DNA of 64,000 nucleotides from an uncultured Paludibaculum sp. (GTDB lineage Bacteria > Acidobacteriota > Terriglobia > Bryobacterales > Bryobacteraceae): assembly GCF_963665245.1 (NCBI RefSeq), contig NZ_OY762267.1:1488001-1552000 (forward strand), in the 5' to 3' direction. The notes below the pieces were generated by a model. It did no database searches. It saw only the letters and a program-made list of their open reading frames with translations, and was not told where the DNA came from. Below, piece after piece: positions 35,860-47,468 of this stretch (its first letter is position 1; each line of letters starts with the position of its first letter). The position numbers and the translations under genes are program-made.

Positions 35860-37242
35860 CTATTTCTTGAAAACGGCTTCCACCGCGGCAGTGATCTTCT
35901 CCAGGTCCGCGGTTTCGAAACCCCGCATGGCCTTCATGCTGGCTTGTACCTCCATGGGCGATAGTTTCAAGAGATCCACGAGGATCGCATCGCGTTTCGC
36001 CTTGAAATCGGAGGCCTTCGGGTCAAGTGCGTCCTCTTTGAGGACTTTGGCCTTGGCGTAGATGGGCGCATCCCGGCGAGCAGCCGCCTCATTGAAAACA
36101 CGGTGACCACGGTCGCCAGTGTAGTAGTAGTCGCGATAAGTGCGGTTGCTCATGAGAAACTCCACCGCGCGCTGGATCTTGTTCTGCCAGCCTCCGAGTG
36201 TGGGCGCCGCGACTCCGCCCTCGATGGCGCGTTGCGCGTTCCATGCCGTGAGGCCGGCGGGCGCGGAAATCTGAATGCGCGAGTAGGGGATGGTTGCATG
36301 GCTGAAGGCAACCATGCGATTGCCCGAGGGGCAGGCGGTAGGCTCCATATAGAAGGTCTTCATGCCCATGAGCGACATCGCTTCCAGGATGCCGCTGCGC
36401 ATCCCGACGTGGACGACATTTACGTTGTCAGCGATGTATTTGAAGAACGCGAACTGGCCCAGATAAGAGGAACTCTTCAGCGGCTCCTCCTTCCAGGCGG
36501 CCTCTTCCCAGAGCTTGGAGACATTCACGATCTGAGGGGACTCGGCCGCGAGTGTGGCCAGTTTGCCATTCTTTTCGTCCCCGGCCAACAGGACCGTGGC
36601 ATTGCCCTTGGTCATGGCAAAGTGGCGCGCCAGCTGCCGGATGCCTTCGAAACTGGAGTCCAGCTCGACGTGCGCCCCGCCGCCCTTACCGCTCTGCCGG
36701 CTCCAGAGGACGACGAAGTTATCGCGGAAGCCGAGCTTGAGAATGCTGAACTTCTCAGTGAGGAAGGCATCGAGGGCCCGGAACAACTCCCCCTCGATCT
36801 TCACCACTTTCCACAAGGCGGCGATCGTCTTCCCCGTGGCCACGGGATTGGCTTTGTACGCGTTGGAGACCCAACCGGTGACGGCCGTGATGCCACGAGG
36901 CCAACCAGATGGTCTCTCACTTTGCACTTTGTCGATTACCTTCTTGAACTCGCCATTCGTCCTGGCGAAATCGAGGGCCGGACCGGGCTTCGTGTGCGCC
37001 TCCTTGAGCAGACCCCAGACCTGCTTCGCCTCGATCTTTCCAGAGCTGATATCCATCACCAACACCTGCCCCTGGACGCCGCATTCCCGATAAAAGGAAA
37101 GGATTACCTTGTCCGTTTTATCCTGCGGCTCCTTGGTGTCCTTGATCAGGATGATCTTTGAGTTGGGATTCAGTTTCAGCCAAACCGCCGCGGTGTAGGT
37201 ATCTCCGGACATGTAACCCATCTGCAGAACTTTGTCGGCCAT
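35860..37242 (-). CDS. unknown protein, possibly GT-B glycosyltransferase-like
   Basis: The 460-residue protein has no signal peptide. The N-terminal half has a nucleotide-fold-like alternation (KVLQMGYMSGD, SKIILIKDT, GQVLVMDI). The C-terminal half has NVNVVHVGMRSGILEAMSLMG, then KTFYMEPTACPSGNRMVAFS, which reads like the donor-site face of GT-B glycosyltransferases. The last 90 residues are helical and charged. No family can be named. The start is well supported: AGGAGG 7 nt upstream of the ATG. TAAAAT at 37281-37276 is a good -10 candidate, and CGCTA-TTT-TAGCG is a small inverted repeat at the same place. It may be its own transcription unit. Confidence 0.65.
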   Translation of the reverse strand: MADKVLQMGYMSGDTYTAAVWLKLNPNSKIILIKDTKEPQDKTDKVILSFYRECGVQGQVLVMDISSGKIEAKQVWGLLKEAHTKPGPALDFARTNGEFKKVIDKVQSERPSGWPRGITAVTGWVSNAYKANPVATGKTIAALWKVVKIEGELFRALDAFLTEKFSILKLGFRDNFVVLWSRQSGKGGGAHVELDSSFEGIRQLARHFAMTKGNATVLLAGDEKNGKLATLAAESPQIVNVSKLWEEAAWKEEPLKSSSYLGQFAFFKYIADNVNVVHVGMRSGILEAMSLMGMKTFYMEPTACPSGNRMVAFSHATIPYSRIQISAPAGLTAWNAQRAIEGGVAAPTLGGWQNKIQRAVEFLMSNRTYRDYYYTGDRGHRVFNEAAARRDAPIYAKAKVLKEDALDPKASDFKAKRDAILVDLLKLSPMEVQASMKAMRGFETADLEKITAAVEAVFKK

Positions 37243-38861: not shown

Positions 38862-41800
38862 CTATGGCAGCGGTCCGGGCAGGCCGGCCGGGCATGGAGT
38901 GACATGCAGGTATTGCTGGCACTCCTCCGGCGTGAGGCTGCGCTTGATGTAGCGGCGCGCCAGGTCCAGCAGACCGTCGTAAGTGGCTGCGTAGGTCCGG
39001 ATGAAACCATCGGCACCACTGGAGGCAAGCAGTTTTCCGTCGGGGCGGTAGGCGACACGGTTGGCACCGCCGGCGTGGGCGGAGTAGCGCAGGATCTCGG
39101 TGGTGCCGTCCATGGTCCAGACGCGGACGGTGCCATCCTGACCGCTGGTGGCCATCTCCAGCAGCTTCGGCCGGCAAGCCACACCAAAGACCGGGCCCGT
39201 GTGGCCGCGCATGACTAGCGAATCCGACTTGCGAAAAACCTGAGCCACGCCTGAGGAGTCAGCGACAGCGATCCAGCCCCCCGAGACTCCGCCGAACGAA
39301 ATGTTGAGAATTCCTCCCGGGTTGAGGCCAAAGTCCTGATCCGGCCTGCCTCCCTGGACGGGGGTGAGGAAGAGATGACGATCCCATCCACCGCTGGCCA
39401 GAAATTTCCCATCGGGGGAGAAGCGCACGGCCACGGCTCGGTCCTGATGAGTGGCGACCAGCCGAGGAGTGTTGTTCTGGATGGGCAGGGTGATCTGATA
39501 GACCTTGCCATCGGAGAGGGCGACGGCAACAGACTTCCCGTCGGGCGCGAAGTCGAGAGACCAGACGCTCTTCGGGAAACTGTGGCCGTCGAAGTTCTTC
39601 CCCGAGGCGGTCCAGAGATTGAGTAGTCCGTCCAGGCTCACACTCGCGACGATGGCGCCGTTGGGGCTATAGGCCACATCCCAGACCTGCTTGAGGGGCG
39701 GAACATTCTTCCAATCACCGATGACGGTCCCTTGCGCGATGTCGATGATCTTGACGCGGCCATCGGCGGAGCCGGCCGCGAGGCGCTCGCCGTTGGGCGA
39801 GAAGGCCAGCCCGATCACGGCCTGCGACGAGGCCCTGATGCGTTTGAGCGGGGTGTTGCGATCCCAAACGCGCACTTCGCCAGTGCGTGCCACGGTGACC
39901 GGCACGCCGTGGGAGTTCCAGCCGACGGCCAGAGCGGCACCGGCCAGACCAGGCAGGCGAGCCAGCTCATCGAGTGTCGCGGCATCGAGGATCACGGCGG
40001 TGCCGTCCTCCATCCCGGTGAGCAACTGAGTGGCATCGCCATTCCAGCGCACCCTTGTGACGGGCGAACTGCCGACGCGGGCGGACTTCTGCGCCGCGGG
40101 GTTGGGCGCGCCAGCACCTCGTTCGGCGCGGACCTCCAGAGTACCGGACGAGTCACCCCGGGCCACCTTGCCATTAGCCTCGTCATGGTCGAGGATCGCG
40201 GAGGCGGTGCCTGCATACGGAGTGGACACGCCACTACGTGTCACCAGGAAGCGTGCTGTGTTGCGCGTGGAAACGAGGTAGCCGCCGGGCTGAATGGAGA
40301 TGTCGGCGGCGTCGGGAATGTTCGTCAGTTTGGCGGGCTTCCGGCCCCCGGCCCAGACGAGGAGATCGCCCTTTTCAGTCAGAGCGGCCACGGAATCCGT
40401 GTCGACGGCCGCACTCACAATGGGGCCGAGGCGGCCGATGACCGTTGGGCGCGGAGTCGCGAGAACGTCGCCGAGAATGCGCGAAACATCAGAGTGATTG
40501 GACTCAGGGCCGGCGAGCTGAGCAGCGGCGAGAGCGAGCAGGGCGGCGCGCTCGGGGTCGGCCAGGGAAACGAGGGTCGCGTTGTCGAGGATAGGCTTGG
40601 ATTCGACGGCCCTCGCCAGTGAGGTATTGGACTCGCTGAGCGTCGCGTTCGAGCGGAAGAGGAGAAGAGCCCCTCCAGCGGCGACGATCAACAGCATCAC
40701 TACCAGCTCCAGCAGGCGAAGGCTCCGCTTGCTCGATCGTCGCGCGGCTTCCTCCCGTTCAGCGCGGTAGCGCTCGGCCCACGCGGTGAGAAAGGGCGCG
40801 TACATGTCGTGGTAGAGCTCGAACCAGACGGCGCCGCCGGGGGCGGGGGTGCGCCGCAGAATGCGGGCCCGGCTCAGGGCGGAGAGGGCGTCGTCCAACT
40901 TCTGCCGATCCAATTTCAGATGCTCGGCCAGGCTATTGAGCTCGTACGCCATCTTGGCGCCCTGGCGGGTGATGAGGAACCCAAAGGCGCCCGAGATCAC
41001 CTCCTTGGCCGCCTGCGGAAGCGGATTCAGACTTTCATCGCAGTAGGCCCGCAGAGCGCCGGAGGCTCCACCAGCGGAGTACACGCGGGGAAAGCCGCTC
41101 TGCTCATCCGGTGGAGACTGCTGCCATAGGCGGTGACAGGCGATCTGCAGATAGGGCGGCGAGACGAACTCGCGAGACCGGGCCTCCGCGCCGCGCTGCC
41201 CCGGCGTGGTAGCTCGCAGGAGGTCGTCGAGCAGGTCAGGCAGCAACGCGGACTTGCCGACGCCAGCCGAACGGCAGGTGGCTTCAATGATCTCGCGGGT
41301 CTGGCGGCGGTTCGGCGCTTTCAGCCGGTAGTAGTTGCCGAACAGGTCCGGCACCTTGTTGTCGAACACGCTCAACTCCCCAAGGAACTCTTCGCGCATG
41401 GCAAAGATGATGCGGGCCTCACAGCGATCGGAGTTGATGACTTCGGAGAGCTGGAGGATGAACTGGTCGAGCTCCGGAGTGTCGCGATGGTTCTGGAAGA
41501 CCTCCTCAAACTGGTCGAGGATGAACAGTGTACCGCTGAGCCGCTCGTGCACGACGGGCAACATATCCAGCAACGGAGCATCGACTGGGGGCTGGAATCC
41601 TTGAGCGGCCCACGACGCACTGAGCGACTGCCGCAGCGCGGCAAGGGGTTCGCCGGCGCTCCAGGCGGAGTGCTGGCAGATGCAGTAGCGGCGCTCCAGT
41701 TCCGGCGCGACTTTAGCGTTCAGGAAGGAGCTCTTCCCGACGCCGGAGCCGGCGAAGAGCAGAGTGGTGCGACGGATAAAGATACGGGCCAGAATGACGG

Positions 41801-41885
41801 TGAGGTCGTCGTCCCGTCCAAACAGCACTTCGCGATCGTCGCGAGTGTAGCTGGAGAGCCCTCGGAATGGATTGGGACCTACCAT
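38862..41885 (-). CDS. nSTAND-type ATPase with transmembrane segment and WD40 propeller
   Basis: The 1007-residue protein starts at ATG 41885 (VGPNPFRGL, the usual N-terminus of this family), 7 nt inside the SIR2 gene; a longer frame from TTG 41906 is less likely. Walker A is at 46-53 (GSGVGKSS), Walker B at 122-130 (ILDQFEEVF), with a helical STAND extension after it. One membrane segment lies at about 390-410 (LLELVVMLLIVAAGGALLLF). From about 470 to the end there are WD40 blades (VWDVAYSPNGAIVASVSLDGLL, VRVWTM), closing with SLTPEECQQYLHVTPCP. This is the nSTAND1-TM-WD40 architecture. With an overlapping SIR2 partner it probably senses a signal and drives the effector. The ligand is unknown. 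Confidence 0.9.
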   Translation of the reverse strand: MVGPNPFRGLSSYTRDDREVLFGRDDDLTVILARIFIRRTTLLFAGSGVGKSSFLNAKVAPELERRYCICQHSAWSAGEPLAALRQSLSASWAAQGFQPPVDAPLLDMLPVVHERLSGTLFILDQFEEVFQNHRDTPELDQFILQLSEVINSDRCEARIIFAMREEFLGELSVFDNKVPDLFGNYYRLKAPNRRQTREIIEATCRSAGVGKSALLPDLLDDLLRATTPGQRGAEARSREFVSPPYLQIACHRLWQQSPPDEQSGFPRVYSAGGASGALRAYCDESLNPLPQAAKEVISGAFGFLITRQGAKMAYELNSLAEHLKLDRQKLDDALSALSRARILRRTPAPGGAVWFELYHDMYAPFLTAWAERYRAEREEAARRSSKRSLRLLELVVMLLIVAAGGALLLFRSNATLSESNTSLARAVESKPILDNATLVSLADPERAALLALAAAQLAGPESNHSDVSRILGDVLATPRPTVIGRLGPIVSAAVDTDSVAALTEKGDLLVWAGGRKPAKLTNIPDAADISIQPGGYLVSTRNTARFLVTRSGVSTPYAGTASAILDHDEANGKVARGDSSGTLEVRAERGAGAPNPAAQKSARVGSSPVTRVRWNGDATQLLTGMEDGTAVILDAATLDELARLPGLAGAALAVGWNSHGVPVTVARTGEVRVWDRNTPLKRIRASSQAVIGLAFSPNGERLAAGSADGRVKIIDIAQGTVIGDWKNVPPLKQVWDVAYSPNGAIVASVSLDGLLNLWTASGKNFDGHSFPKSVWSLDFAPDGKSVAVALSDGKVYQITLPIQNNTPRLVATHQDRAVAVRFSPDGKFLASGGWDRHLFLTPVQGGRPDQDFGLNPGGILNISFGGVSGGWIAVADSSGVAQVFRKSDSLVMRGHTGPVFGVACRPKLLEMATSGQDGTVRVWTMDGTTEILRYSAHAGGANRVAYRPDGKLLASSGADGFIRTYAATYDGLLDLARRYIKRSLTPEECQQYLHVTPCPAGLPGPLP

Positions 41886-43069
41886 AGCGAGGGGGTATCC
41901 GCCCAAGCCGCCGGCGCGGCGCGGCGCTTGATTTCGCCAGCGAACTTGACGAGATCAGCAACACAGACGTTGATGGTGGGCTGAGAGAGGTACTGTGATT
42001 CGAAGTCGTTGACCCAACTGACGACGGCGTAGTCGCGTACGTCCTTGGTCAGCGCGCGCTGGTCGATGATGGTGCGATACATGGCGCGCACGTTCCAATC
42101 AGAGAAGCTGTAGCCGAGAAACAGAAAGCCGGTGTTCTGCTGACCGTCGTTCTGCATCAAACGTGTGACGGCCGCGGGGATGACACCGTCGCCCGATTCC
42201 CCCTGTCGCTTCAGGAAGGCGATGTAGTCCTCATCGGAGAGGATGATGCTGTCGTCGGTTGTTCCTGGCGGCGGGAAGAGGCAACCGTGCATCTTGTAGA
42301 GGACGGCCACCGGCTTTCGAGTGGCAACGGAAGGCAAGGTAAACAGGGCCGGCTGCTTTCCCTTGAGGCCGTCCTCGAAGTCGGCGAAGTCACTGGCGGA
42401 GAGTTCCAACCAGGACTGGAGGCTCGTGCTGGTCCGCACGGCCACGTGGTGCTGTTTGCGGCCCACGGTCAGCACAAGATAAGGGACTTTGGCGGCGTCA
42501 AAGGCCAGCTCGATCAGCTGATCGTAGTTGGTGGTGATGACCAGGTAGTCGCGCCTGGTGTTGCGCAGGTGGTGGCGCGCCGCGCGGGCGATCAGGTCCT
42601 GTGTGGGCAGCGGTTGGGTCTTGCCGGCGAAGAGCGACTCCAGATCCTTGCGATGAGGATCGCGGCCTCGGACGAACTCGTGGTAGCTGGAGACCGGCAG
42701 GAGGGAGTAGGGCCAGGAGCCGCGGTAACTGACATTGGCCGCCAGCGCGTTGGCAAGTTCACGAGCCGAGGGCGGATAGGGTTTGTGGCCAGCGATATCC
42801 ATCCAGTCGGGCTCATGATTCTCGTAGTTCTGGAGATCGAAGGCTTCGCGAATCCCCTGCTTCAGGTGTTCCAGGGCCGCGCCCGAAAGACCCCAGCGCA
42901 CGGCCAACTCCTCCACCTCGGCGTCGGGCGGATAGGTGGCGGACGGAGTCGCGGAGGGCGGAGATCCGGCGATGGACGCGCCTGCCCCAAGGAACGGGAT
43001 GAGTGCCTGGTTCTCGGCCAGCACGTCCGCAACGAGAGACGCATACGGAATGGAAGGGAGGACAGGCAT
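41879..43069 (-). CDS. SIR2-like predicted NAD hydrolase
   Basis: The 396-residue protein has the SIR2_2 signature: FLGAGAS (26-32), ITTNYDQL (178-185), KMHG with the catalytic histidine H261, and FLGYSFSDWN (317-326). In defence proteins of this kind (Thoeris ThsA, DSR2, SIR2-STAND) this domain hydrolyses NAD and stops cell growth. It is encoded just before, and overlaps by 7 nt, the nSTAND-WD40 gene, so the two are cotranslated. A -10 hexamer TAGAAT (43091-43086) lies 17 bp before the ATG. The NAD-consuming function is inferred from the fold and motifs. Confidence 0.9.
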   Translation of the reverse strand: MPVLPSIPYASLVADVLAENQALIPFLGAGASIAGSPPSATPSATYPPDAEVEELAVRWGLSGAALEHLKQGIREAFDLQNYENHEPDWMDIAGHKPYPPSARELANALAANVSYRGSWPYSLLPVSSYHEFVRGRDPHRKDLESLFAGKTQPLPTQDLIARAARHHLRNTRRDYLVITTNYDQLIELAFDAAKVPYLVLTVGRKQHHVAVRTSTSLQSWLELSASDFADFEDGLKGKQPALFTLPSVATRKPVAVLYKMHGCLFPPPGTTDDSIILSDEDYIAFLKRQGESGDGVIPAAVTRLMQNDGQQNTGFLFLGYSFSDWNVRAMYRTIIDQRALTKDVRDYAVVSWVNDFESQYLSQPTINVCVADLVKFAGEIKRRAAPAAWADTPSLW

Positions 43070-43255: not shown

Positions 43256-44947
43256 CTACTGCCGGACGAACTCGACGCGGCGGTTCTGTGACCGGCCCTG
43301 TGGAGTGTCGTTGGTCTCGAGTGGTTTCGTCGCGCCCAAGCCGGCGGTGGTGAGACGCGCGGAGTCGACGCCAAACTGGGCGGAGAGCACGCTCTTCACC
43401 GCTTCGGCACGACGCCGGGAGAGATCGAGATTGTGGTCCGCGTTGCCTACCGAATCAGTGTGGCCCTCAATGCGCAGCTTCAGATTTGGGTTCGTCTCGA
43501 GCCCCTTGGCAATGGTCTGGATGACTGCGGCGGATTCGGGCTTCAGCCGGTCACTGTCGGTATCAAAGAGGATCCCGTGGGTGACATAGCGGCCGGAGGC
43601 GGTGATCATCTGGCTGAAGTCAGGCGCCGATTCAGCGAAGCGGACCATTCGGTAGCCGACCGATTGCCCAGGGAAGGTCGAGCTGTTCGCAAATTCGACT
43701 TTGGTGATCTCCGGGAGATCGACCTGATTGAAATCGAGCTGCTTCTCGCCGTTCACAAAGATTCGCATTCGCCCGTTCTGAACCCAAAGGGCGAAACGTA
43801 CGACGTCGGCCCAACTGATGGGTAGACGCTTCCGGCCCAGTTCCTGGTACGGCGCCCGAAGGGATGCCACCAGGTCCACCTGGCCTGGCCCCGCGTAAGT
43901 GACCAGGTGGAAGACTTCCTTGGTACTGGAAGAGAGGAGCAGGGAGACGATGGCCCGCTTCACCCCATCAAACTTTAAATCGGCTTCGTACGTGAAATTC
44001 TTCGGAAGTGCCTTGAGGTTTGGAAAGAGGGAGCCGGCGCTGGTCACCAGCAGTTGCCGAACGGCGCCGGCGGCCTGCAGGTCGGGTGCGGCTCCGCGGA
44101 CCTTGAAGTGGGGCGGCGCGTCGCCTGGGCTCATATCCGTGAAGTCGTCGTAGAAGAGCGTCTTCTCGCCGGGCACGAAGGCGGGGGTGAGCGACTTAAA
44201 CTCAGGCTGGGGCGTCAAGCCGGAGGCGGTCGACTGCGGCGGGCCAGACGGCGGGGCCGGCGAAGGCGCCGGAGCGGCCACGCTCGCGGTGACAACGGGC
44301 TGCGCCGCTACGGGTGCGGCGGCAGTCTGGGACGGAGCACTGGCGGGGCCGGGTTGGGAGGCAGTGAGCGTCGAAAGAGGCGCACCGCCGCGGGCGTTGG
44401 CTTCGATGAGCAAGCGGCTACCCGGGGCGAAGCGAATGTTCGGGGCGTCGGCCGCGATCTGCACCATTGCGATAGAGGCTCCGGCCCCGATGGCGGAGCC
44501 AATGGCCGCGCCTTTGCCACCTCCGGCAATACCACCAATCACGGCACCGATGCCAGTTCCACCAGCGACCTTGGCAACGTTGCCTGTGCCCCGGCGTACG
44601 ATGCGACCCTCCTCGTCCACGTCCTGCTTGCCTTGGGAATTGATCGCCGACTTGAATTGGGAGTTGATGGCAATGGTGGATCCGCCATGCCGGAGAGTGT
44701 CGAAGGTGAAAGAGAATACCGACTTCCCGCCCAACTTCGCACCGGAGCGTGATTCGGTGACCTTCCCATCCAACATGTCGCCTTGCAGCTGCGGCGGCGA
44801 GATAACACGACCGGAGATCAGATCGCCCTTCCGGCTGGTGTCCGTGCCGATCTGATTCATGAGCTCTATCTGAATGTCTATGGATTGGGCGTGGATGAAG
44901 CCCGTAAGCAGCAACATCGATGCCAGCCATGTGAATGGCAGTTTCAT
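43256..44947 (-). CDS. exported OmpA-family protein with glycine zipper
   Basis: The 563-residue protein has a signal peptide (residues 1-20, LLTGFIHAQS). Then come a beta domain (about 25-120), a glycine zipper (GGTGIGAVIGGIAGGGKGAAIG, about 130-152) that may insert in or thread the outer membrane, a Pro/Ala/Ser linker (200-250), a lectin-like beta-sandwich (about 265-440) and a C-terminal OmpA domain with GILFDTDSDRLKP, IEGHTDSVG and QGRSQNRRVEF. GGAGGAGG lies before the ATG. It is divergent from the gene at 45213. Its likely role is to link the envelope to peptidoglycan. It is a different build from the OmpA protein at 5069-6697. Confidence 0.87.
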   Translation of the reverse strand: MKLPFTWLASMLLLTGFIHAQSIDIQIELMNQIGTDTSRKGDLISGRVISPPQLQGDMLDGKVTESRSGAKLGGKSVFSFTFDTLRHGGSTIAINSQFKSAINSQGKQDVDEEGRIVRRGTGNVAKVAGGTGIGAVIGGIAGGGKGAAIGSAIGAGASIAMVQIAADAPNIRFAPGSRLLIEANARGGAPLSTLTASQPGPASAPSQTAAAPVAAQPVVTASVAAPAPSPAPPSGPPQSTASGLTPQPEFKSLTPAFVPGEKTLFYDDFTDMSPGDAPPHFKVRGAAPDLQAAGAVRQLLVTSAGSLFPNLKALPKNFTYEADLKFDGVKRAIVSLLLSSSTKEVFHLVTYAGPGQVDLVASLRAPYQELGRKRLPISWADVVRFALWVQNGRMRIFVNGEKQLDFNQVDLPEITKVEFANSSTFPGQSVGYRMVRFAESAPDFSQMITASGRYVTHGILFDTDSDRLKPESAAVIQTIAKGLETNPNLKLRIEGHTDSVGNADHNLDLSRRRAEAVKSVLSAQFGVDSARLTTAGLGATKPLETNDTPQGRSQNRRVEFVRQ

Positions 44948-45212
44948 CGCTATCCTCCTCCGAAGATGCGGCCCGTGTGGGCGCTACAGAGAGCTATATC
45001 ACAAATCACCTATACAGACCTCCTTCTCTCTTAACTTTTAATACTCCAGAGTGTCTGGGACGCCAGGCCAATTAAGCTGAGTAATCAGAGGCGCGACACC
45101 AGTTGCCTCCTGGCTGGGCGGAGCGGCCGGGAACCAGGTCGACAGGAATGACGTCTCAACCACTGTGCGTAAACGAGGACTCGTCTCGTCGACCCCCGCT
45201 GAGAAGTGGAGG

Positions 45213-47468
45213 ATGGTCTTGAGACTGGCCGTCGCATTGCTCGTGACGGTCCTCGGGGAGCCCAGTTGGGCCGTTCAAGACAATGGGTGTTCGGCGGCAT
45301 CGTCCGTCTCCGACGTCCATTTCACTCTTGCGGTGAAGGACGGCCGGACCGTGTTCCACGCCGGGGAGATTGTTCCACTGGAGCTGTCATTCACCGCGAC
45401 GGCAAAGCATCGCTATTGGGCCGACGTACACAACTATGACCGCAGCGGACGCCTGGGGATTGAGTCCTTTTGCGTGGAGCCGGAAGCAGCCGATCCGCTC
45501 GCGTCGTACTTCACCGCCGCAAGCTCTCTGGGCGGCGGGCTTGGCGGCACTCGGGAACTGGACGCCACTCCGTTCGCCGCTGAAGCGGAGTTGAACGAGT
45601 GGCGCCGGCTGAGCCCGGGACATTACCGGGTGTACGCGATCAGCCAGCGCATCTGGCGGCCGTCTGATCCTCGCGAGCGGACACCGTACGGCCGGGTCTC
45701 GGAGGTGCTCCGCTCCAACACGGTGGAACTGGACGTAATGCCGCCTGACGCCGAATGGCAGGCCGAGCAACTCCGAAGCGCGACACAGGTGTTGGCGGGC
45801 AATCCATCGCCCGAGGAGGCTCATCGTGCCGCACGCCGGCTTCGGTTCCTGGACACCCCGGATTCAGCTGGGCAACTCGCTCGCCTGTTCTGGGGACTGA
45901 ATCAGCAGCAATCGGTTGGTTGGGACCTCATGTTTGGACTCTACGGATCACCGTTCCAAAAGGTCGCCATTGACTCCATGAACGATGAGCTTGCGGTTCC
46001 CGAGCACCCGATCACGGGCGAGTTCCTGGGTACACTCGTTAACCTCCAAATCGTGGCAGATTCCACCTGGAATCCTCCAGCTTCCGGACCGACGGATTCA
46101 GAGGCGGCCCGGGCCTTCTGGGAGAGGCGGCGCGCCCACACGCGGGCGTTGGCCGATCTCGCGGTGCGGAAGGTGACGGAGGCCCTGCCTCGCAAGGTTG
46201 GCGTTGCCCGCGCACTCACACTCCATGGGTTACTTGTGACGGGCGACCGGGATCAGACAAGTGCGGGAAAGATCCGCCCGGCTCTGATCGCCACGTGGAG
46301 AGACTTGCCACGGGAGACCCAGTCGGAGCTGATCCGGCACCGCTGGCCGCTCATTGCTGGGCCGGAAATGCTTCCAATCCTGCGGCTCCTGGTTGCGGAA
46401 GCACCGCCGCCGGCGCGGACCGATCGCGGCATGACGCGCGATGCCGCGCTGAAACACATCCATGAACTCGATCCCGAGGCGGGTCGCGCCTTGATACTGC
46501 GGGATGCGGTGAATCCGAGCGCGCAGCCGGATCTCGAAGTGATCCGTCTCCTTCCCAAAGAAGACATCACGGTAGTACTCCGGTCTGCCGTGGAACGGAT
46601 CGGACAGGACAAGGCCCGAGACCTGGATTACGAACTGCTCGACCGATTCGCGGACTCGAGTGTTCTGGGTGTCGCGCAAGCCGCATTCGAGAGGCATCTG
46701 GGTAAGTGGGCCTGCTCACCACAAACTGCGATGCTGCGTTACCTGCTGCGGGCAGATCCGGCGTACGGCGCCAGGCAAGTTAGCGCGTCACTGGGCGCCA
46801 GAAAGGAAACCCACTGCTATGGCAGCCTGCTGCAAAGCCTGGGAGAGGAACTCCCGAGTGCCCAGGACAGCGCGATCGAGGCGCTCGATGATTCAGATCC
46901 CGAAGTGGTTCAAGACGCTGTGGCGGCCCTTGGGCTTTGGGGGTCCGCCAATGCCGAAGAGGCGCTGTGGGCGCGGTTAAGGCGCTTCCAACAGGAGTGG
47001 GCCGGGCGCGAAGACGAACTCCGCTCGACGCCCGACTATCGAGGCTCGGGGGCACGCGCCGTCGCCCTCGAGCAGGCCCTGGTACGGGCCATCGCAACTG
47101 GTCGGAGTTGGATCTGCCCGCCCGAAAAGCTCGCTCGAATCACGAAGCTCGTGCTCACCAGGCAGCAGGCCCAGCAGATCGAGGCCTGGATCGAAGGTTG
47201 GCACCAGGGATCCGCACTGATCACTTCCAACTGGGCCCCTGAGGGCAGCACTGGATTTTCAGTCCTTCAGTACGTCTCATTGACCGAGCAACAGTTGCGC
47301 GCAAAACTGGCCCAATTTCCGCGAGGAACACGGCTCCGCTGGCAGTTCTGGCAGCCTGGACAGATCTTCCCTCCTGTGAGTATGGAACGGCAGGAGGCTC
47401 TGTATGAGAGCATGCGGGGATACGCCGCGAAGAACGGTATCCTGCTGGACCGGGCTAATCACCCGTAG
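45213..47468 (+). CDS. large exported protein with HEAT-like repeats, paralogue of the 30218 gene
   Basis: With the ATG at 45213 the protein has 751 residues; a TTG two codons later has better spacing to the GGAGG before it and may be the true start. A signal peptide ends near residue 21 (LGEPSWAVQ). The beta domain at 30-190 ends in RSNTVELDVMPPDAEW. Helical repeats follow (HRAARRLRFLDTPDSAGQLARLF, DSAIEALDDSDPEVVQDAV), then a C-terminal LRAKLAQFPRGTRLRWQFW element. Each element matches one in the 685-residue product of 30218-32275 in order. Function unknown; probably periplasmic. Confidence 0.8.
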   Translation: MVLRLAVALLVTVLGEPSWAVQDNGCSAASSVSDVHFTLAVKDGRTVFHAGEIVPLELSFTATAKHRYWADVHNYDRSGRLGIESFCVEPEAADPLASYFTAASSLGGGLGGTRELDATPFAAEAELNEWRRLSPGHYRVYAISQRIWRPSDPRERTPYGRVSEVLRSNTVELDVMPPDAEWQAEQLRSATQVLAGNPSPEEAHRAARRLRFLDTPDSAGQLARLFWGLNQQQSVGWDLMFGLYGSPFQKVAIDSMNDELAVPEHPITGEFLGTLVNLQIVADSTWNPPASGPTDSEAARAFWERRRAHTRALADLAVRKVTEALPRKVGVARALTLHGLLVTGDRDQTSAGKIRPALIATWRDLPRETQSELIRHRWPLIAGPEMLPILRLLVAEAPPPARTDRGMTRDAALKHIHELDPEAGRALILRDAVNPSAQPDLEVIRLLPKEDITVVLRSAVERIGQDKARDLDYELLDRFADSSVLGVAQAAFERHLGKWACSPQTAMLRYLLRADPAYGARQVSASLGARKETHCYGSLLQSLGEELPSAQDSAIEALDDSDPEVVQDAVAALGLWGSANAEEALWARLRRFQQEWAGREDELRSTPDYRGSGARAVALEQALVRAIATGRSWICPPEKLARITKLVLTRQQAQQIEAWIEGWHQGSALITSNWAPEGSTGFSVLQYVSLTEQQLRAKLAQFPRGTRLRWQFWQPGQIFPPVSMERQEALYESMRGYAAKNGILLDRANHP

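Follow-up and report, generated by a model that had tools for sequence, protein, structure and literature searches.

A conserved SIR2-nSTAND1 gene pair

In the window analysed here, a stretch of 64,000 nucleotides from an uncultured Paludibaculum sp. (contig NZ_OY762267.1, positions 1,488,001 to 1,552,000, in a 9.5 Mb assembly of 3 contigs), a gene coding for a SIR2 protein is directly followed and overlapped by a gene coding for a STAND ATPase of the nSTAND1 family, and this SIR2-nSTAND1 pair is a conserved unit. With moderate confidence, we interpret it as a two-protein alarm in which a predicted membrane-spanning STAND protein would activate a separate SIR2 enzyme predicted to hydrolyse NAD (NADase), probably in abortive-infection defence. 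The pair comprises the following features, in coordinates of the window:

41879..43069, minus strand: SIR2_2 gene, predicted NADase effector, 396 residues (PF13289, E 6e-21)
42974..42994, minus strand: FLGAGAS glycine motif, residues 26-32, predicted NAD binding (F26, G28, A29, G30 and S32 invariant in 41 aligned rows)
42521..42535, minus strand: TTNYD, predicted catalytic Asn181 and Asp183 (invariant in 41/41 rows)
42284..42295, minus strand: KMHG, predicted catalytic His261 (K259, H261 and G262 invariant in 41/41 rows)
41879..41885, minus strand: ATGGTAG, 7 bases in which the STAND start overlaps the SIR2 stop (read from the sequence)
38862..41885, minus strand: nSTAND1-transmembrane-WD40 gene, predicted membrane-anchored sensor and switch, 1007 residues from the ATG in ATGGTAG (Pfam)
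40725..41870, minus strand: nSTAND1 NTPase domain, residues 6-387 (PF20703, E 6.1e-37)
41730..41753, minus strand: Walker A, AGSGVGKS, residues 45-52 (G48, G50 and K51 invariant in 37 rows)
41511..41528, minus strand: Walker B, LFILDQ, residues 120-125 (D124 and Q125 invariant in 37 rows)
40659..40715, minus strand: predicted transmembrane segment, residues 391-409, with basic residues N-terminal of it (hydropathy 2.66)
40461..40649, minus strand: helical stalk, residues about 413-475 (AlphaFold model)
38988..40451, minus strand: beta-propeller region of about twelve blades, residues 479-966, predicted sensor (Pfam WD40; model and structural matches)

An earlier note on this DNA had described a SIR2 protein with three motifs overlapping a STAND protein with Walker A and B motifs, a membrane segment and WD40 repeats, and Pfam searches, hydropathy and alignments confirm that description. 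The SIR2 protein scores 75.5 bits against PF13289 (SIR2_2, cut-off 24.5) and has the GAG, TTNxD and HG motifs of the SIR2_2 defence sirtuins of the NADase type; the STAND protein scores 128.6 bits against PF20703 (nSTAND1, cut-off 27.1), has both Walker motifs and is the sole nSTAND1 above the family cut-off in its genome. The overlap of the two genes suggests that they are translationally coupled. The note's view of a SIR2 effector encoded apart from a membrane-segment STAND, yet coupled to it, is likewise supported. Two separate genes are found in the window and in each of 25 measured pairs, where 5 to 195 bases separate the SIR2 stop from the beginning of the nSTAND1 match.

The note had also proposed looking for SIR2_2 next to nSTAND1 in other genomes, and an nSTAND1 gene directly follows SIR2 on the same strand in 27 of 28 relatives of the window SIR2 (the window, the twelve loci L030-L041, the thirteen loci L067-L079, L014 and L123). 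At the exception, L035:5731-8742 (minus strand), which is probably a remnant, a SIR2 gene cut short is followed by a repeat protein and no nSTAND1. The 25 measured pairs leave out this locus, L111 (its nSTAND1 gene being cut by the contig end) and L123 (found later). The nSTAND1 profile used in our own scans derives from the sequences of the window and 12 paired loci, and the searches of the phylum and of the class of genome G356 used a SIR2 profile built from homologues of the window SIR2, with Pfam searches as independent checks. Among 162 genomes of the class of G356, 15 contain a total of 19 SIR2 profile matches, and a Pfam search, made independently of our own profile, places nSTAND1 beside all 19 of them; about 91 nSTAND1 matches (Pfam, rows counted by hand) occur in 51 of 158 genomes of that class. 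Window-type SIR2 is present in 7 of 101 genomes, its own included, and in 6 of 396 genomes of the phylum. The one pair found outside the phylum belongs to Nonomuraea gerenzanensis (Actinomycetota); its SIR2 motifs are intact and nSTAND1 is present.

No nSTAND1 was found at 35 further SIR2 loci, most of them weaker relatives of different origin (27 from viral contigs, six from the genome contigs L015-L020 and two in the window's own genome), although five of these controls say little, L133, L144, L137 and L001 having less than 1.5 kb behind the SIR2 frame and L003 having no SIR2 by profile. The window's genome has three SIR2_2 genes in all; the other two, L001 and L003, are open frames of 654 and 621 residues with no nSTAND1 within 1.5 kb on either side of the SIR2 match. 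Pairwise distances among SIR2 and among nSTAND1 sequences of the pairs are correlated (r 0.89, n=25; 0.86 without two congeners), a correlation for part of which shared descent alone would account. SIR2 and STAND homologues lie on equal-sized contigs in 21 of 118 cases, and each of twenty offsets gives at most one such case.

The predicted SIR2 active site and its degenerate form in CHAT fusions

Among 120 listed SIR2 homologues, TTN[YFW]D is found in all and [KR]xHG in 119. Loss of the active-site residues among homologues would have spoken against the earlier note; in an alignment of 26 genes (20 bare, 6 fused), the stand-alone SIR2 genes keep the catalytic Asn in 20/20 cases and the catalytic His in 19/20 (it is lost in L122), and 19 of the 20 have GAG or GSG as their GAG motif. 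Since comparison with the PDB by sequence gives nothing strong (best E 0.13), folds were compared instead; the structures closest to the SIR2 model (pLDDT 88.3) in Foldseek are SPARSA, KomBC, DSR2 and ThsA, with Avs5 ranking lower.

The six long SIR2 genes scanned all combine CHAT, a caspase-like protease domain, with SIR2_2. In the same alignment, these fused SIR2 domains keep the catalytic Asn in 3/6 and the His in 1/6 (L040), with no intact GAG motif among them. The His is thus lost in 5/6 fused genes versus 1/20 bare ones (Fisher p 5e-4); the fused genes are partly kin, so that independent losses are fewer than counted. In each of the six, the His and Cys of CHAT can be made out (for L115, the Cys by eye), and fusions that have degenerate SIR2 motifs while retaining both CHAT residues are found at L041:2239-4416, L115, L116, L117 and L118. 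In L116, NG stands at the expected HG position; as the NG form works in Avs5, according to the available part of PMC12931631, loss of activity in this protein is not certain. Most simply, SIR2 would both dock to STAND and act as a catalyst, and where a second enzyme is present the catalytic task would no longer fall to it. CHAT fusions with degenerate SIR2 allow a direct test of docking versus catalysis.

Predicted function and genomic context

In the mechanism that we propose, a trigger would be sensed through the predicted propeller sensor of the membrane-spanning STAND protein. The STAND and SIR2 proteins would bind each other, an ATP-driven assembly of STAND would cluster SIR2 (by analogy with Avs5 and Thoeris filaments), and the activated SIR2 would hydrolyse NAD+, stopping or killing the cell. 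Phages may be the trigger, this being the least certain step. Comparison supports, as the best reading, a membrane-anchored NLR-like receptor that would activate a separate NADase, and its role is likely to be phage defence.

Several observations weigh against this interpretation. The Foldseek TM-scores of the SIR2 protein are modest (0.34-0.48 by query), and one paired STAND protein (L121, 413 residues) has no segment above the hydropathy threshold. SIR2 profile scores of paired loci (60.5 to 470 bits) touch those of the controls (26 to 65), so that of the 32 loci at 60 bits or above 27 are paired and five are not, namely L035 and the controls L015, L126, L137 and L138; the controls moreover come from other taxa, and relatedness and taxon are not separated in this comparison. 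Of the 27 pairs, 26 belong to a single phylum, Acidobacteriota, which is the one that the genome searches covered. No SIR2 relative was found in the phage collection searched; the only match in the plasmid collection is a chromosome-sized record (11.9 Mb) with a SIR2-nSTAND1 pair, and the 27 SIR2 relatives on viral contigs are distant and lack nSTAND1. Neither PADLOC nor Pfam reveals a convincing defence-island context among 42 neighbours of ten loci, and those of the neighbours' Pfam families that were listed (25 of 39) are mostly metabolic or envelope-related. Lastly, the congener G006 keeps the order OmpA, SIR2, STAND, Zn-ribbon, PDE, without a gene of 460 residues found in the window, and the pair in this congener is steadier than a typical mobile defence locus.

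The set of 42 neighbouring open reading frames (ORFs) was selected mechanically, at about four per locus, around the window pair and nine further paired loci. As this covers ten of the 27 pairs, a weak defence association could have escaped notice. At E 1e-8, eight PADLOC models match members of this set: mad2 in two, pVip in two (two models), and subtilase, IetS and ZorB (three models) in one each. In a follow-up of ten of the 42, both pVip matches (weak viperin) proved to be one radical-SAM gene of 658 residues in two genomes, while the other eight had no PADLOC match; the mad2 members lie outside those ten. We judge most of the PADLOC matches to be cross-hits. The enrichment in defence islands that the earlier note would have looked for is not supported, and together with the kept gene order these scans indicate that the pair does not look like a defence-island passenger. 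The note had held that consistently metabolic neighbours would refute its proposal, and this is nearly what was found, yet the SIR2-nSTAND1 pair is itself conserved; the note's interpretation is partly supported.

Directly upstream of the pair, the window has a gene for an OmpA-family protein (43256-44947, minus strand). Two further window proteins, of 767 residues (45165-47468, plus strand) and 460 residues (35860-37242, minus strand), have no Pfam match at E 0.001. In the congener G002, a PDE gene follows the pair and the OmpA gene lies on another contig. The radical-SAM gene stands divergently beside the pair at L037:6930-8906 (minus strand) and L039:6598-8574 (minus strand).

A role of this NAD-depleting switch outside phage defence, in regulated death or dormancy when the envelope is damaged or other bacteria attack, seems to us rather unlikely. 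The predicted periplasmic position of the sensor, the lack of a convincing defence-island context and the steady neighbours in the congener would suit such a role, and a bacterial CARD-NLR-like system located outside islands is described, in the available part of PMC13236601, as controlling lysis for gene transfer agents. Phage defence is favoured by the nearest structural relatives of SIR2, which are antiphage proteins, by the patchy presence of the system (a near full-length SIR2 match in 3 of the 9 genomes of the genus, plus a distant relative in one more) and by a sensor part that evolves faster than nSTAND1, four near relatives of the window STAND being 80-81% identical to it in nSTAND1 and 64-67% in the propeller region.

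Predicted topology of the STAND protein

The membrane segment described in the earlier note is present, and near the same place in 107 of 120 STAND homologues. It is not special to the SIR2 pair, as 29 of 40 other (control) nSTAND1 loci have one too, and the membrane anchor was accordingly rejected as a novelty. Among the measured partners, 21/25 have the segment at the scanned place, while L041, L119 and L120 have one elsewhere. Having a single transmembrane segment, an ATPase that requires the cytoplasm and basic residues before the segment, the STAND protein is inferred to expose its propellers to the periplasm. In the window protein, the 20 residues preceding the segment include 8 lysines or arginines and the following 20 include 2.

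That the hydrophobic helix merely anchors STAND to the inner membrane face, with propellers and trigger in the cytoplasm as in Avs5, seems to us unlikely. Such an arrangement would agree with the AlphaFold model (pLDDT 86.2, pTM 0.58), where one long helix spans residues 360-402 with low confidence at 401-414, and with the 13 of 120 STAND homologues that lack a segment at the scanned place, five of them with TPR sensors (in five of the 13 the profile match ends early, so that the scan probably missed the place); Avs5 is also reported at membrane-associated sites in the part of PMC12931631 available. It fits poorly with a segment of 19 residues, a hydropathy of 2.66 and basic residues before it, and with lysines and arginines being commoner before the segment than after it in 101 of the 107 homologues that have one and in 18/21 of the measured pairs.

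A rule associating WD40 with a transmembrane segment and TPR with its absence, drawn from the five TPR proteins above, was dropped, L039 and L040 combining TPR with a segment. The partner STAND at L036:7521-8951 (minus strand) has two hydrophobic helices and no sensor domain, and the actinomycete partner at L123 likewise ends in hydrophobic stretches, with three of them near its C-terminus and no Pfam propeller.

It is quite improbable that SIR2 acts instead as a STAND-controlled regulator, producing an NAD-derived signal or modifying proteins (deacetylation, ADP-ribosylation) without emptying the NAD pool. The idea that SIR2 and STAND are unrelated neighbours without joint function, in favour of which no point was found, can practically be dismissed given the recurrent pairing, the distance correlation and the controls.

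Variable sensors and possible exchange of effectors

Both ends of the predicted alarm vary among relatives. Among ten STAND partners, propeller models match five (L034, L037, L038, L041 and, weakly, L032), TPR is found in two (L039, L040) and no further domain in three (L014, L033, L036). In the window's own class, nSTAND1 is found at E 1e-12 in 14/101 genomes, and the SIR2 profile places SIR2 just upstream in 3 of these 14. Control nSTAND1 loci of the phylum were taken best scores first, so that the TIR group is over-represented among them; of the 41, one lacks a profile match and 26 yielded an upstream ORF. Of these 26 ORFs, TIR_2 matches 19 and DUF4062 matches 15, with one SIR2_2 (E 2e-6, a more distant SIR2) and one weak CHAT match; TIR_2 was found in all ten upstream ORFs inspected singly. 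PMC13174449 describes DUF4062 as a family of TIR-like NADases active against phages. This occurrence of TIR-DUF4062 upstream of other nSTAND1 genes suggests that NAD-consuming effectors may have been exchanged there. In a quick nSTAND1 tree with hand-picked rows (eleven TIR labels from Pfam, six from reading of the sequences), TIR partners form one group, SIR2 partners are split over three positions and CHAT-SIR2 partners over two or more. TIR-DUF4062 followed by nSTAND1 is a second two-gene NADase-STAND arrangement (L081:2763-4226, L082, L084, L093, L101 and others).

Comparison with known systems

The STAND class of switch proteins includes animal and plant immune receptors, and in the characterised STAND antiphage proteins, to our knowledge, sensing is cytoplasmic and the effector is part of the same chain. 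As in the window protein, a STAND ATPase is followed by WD40 propellers in the APAF-1/Dark apoptosome, which is among the top 50 Foldseek rows with TM-scores of only 0.14-0.26; APAF-1 and Dark are not known to have a membrane segment, and a CARD serves for caspase recruitment. The STAND structure search was filled by propellers and barely probed the nSTAND1 part, so no nearest fold is claimed.

Among SIR2 systems, SIR2-HerA (Nezha) also has a separate SIR2 gene with an ATPase partner, and its structures are listed among the matches to the SIR2 model; here the coupled partner is nSTAND1-transmembrane-WD40 and not HerA. DSR1 and DSR2 are single long SIR2 proteins (DSR2 chains reach about 1000 residues), unlike the 396 residues found here. 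Thoeris ThsA joins SIR2 to SLOG and has ThsB, an adjacent TIR gene, whereas Pfam gives only SIR2_2 in our protein, the partner is a STAND and none of the five flanking genes scanned matches TIR. Avs5 carries SIR2, STAND and sensor in one chain, and the pair, being two genes, is therefore not a member of Avs5. In the Avs5 literature as far as available, the sensor is TPR with no transmembrane segment seen, where the window has nSTAND1, a predicted transmembrane segment and WD40 propellers, and about half of the Avs5 homologues have NG in place of the HG of the window SIR2. Our best reading is that the pair would work like Avs5, as a split analogue.

The nSTAND1 conflict systems (Kaur et al. 2021, PMC8195603; DGR-diversified sensors 2024, PMC10907252) come close in other respects: in the available parts of these papers nSTAND1 is named, effector and sensor are sometimes neighbouring genes and some sensors are, as here, predicted to be periplasmic. 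An EAD adaptor there provides links to peptidases and others; no SIR2-nSTAND1 pair was found in those parts, and the SIR2 of PMC8195603 belongs to another system. Swarozyc and the DUF4062 TIR-like NADases share with the pair an NAD-consuming effector, TIR-DUF4062 being the one found upstream of other nSTAND1 genes in the phylum. In the part of PMC13174449 available, each tested defence protein combines DUF4062 with an auxiliary domain in a single chain, and operons receive only a mention, whereas the effector here is SIR2. The earlier note did not recognise the architecture as described, and no description of a SIR2-nSTAND1 gene pair was found in the literature searched, which covered few subscription papers, so that one may exist elsewhere.

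Implications

Tentatively, and with less confidence than for the window pair, these loci might represent widespread bacterial transmembrane NLRs, built on a membrane-anchored nSTAND1 chassis with an exchangeable periplasmic sensor and an equally exchangeable NAD-destroying enzyme encoded just upstream (SIR2 in some, TIR-DUF4062 in others), in which the CHAT-fused SIR2, its active site mostly lost, would be a docking plug between protease and receptor. A membrane-spanning receptor acting on a separately encoded NADase would allow bacteria to notice an attack before entry or while it is under way, and the natural effector swaps on related STANDs (SIR2, TIR-DUF4062, CHAT-SIR2) would lend themselves to studying how STANDs switch enzymes on.

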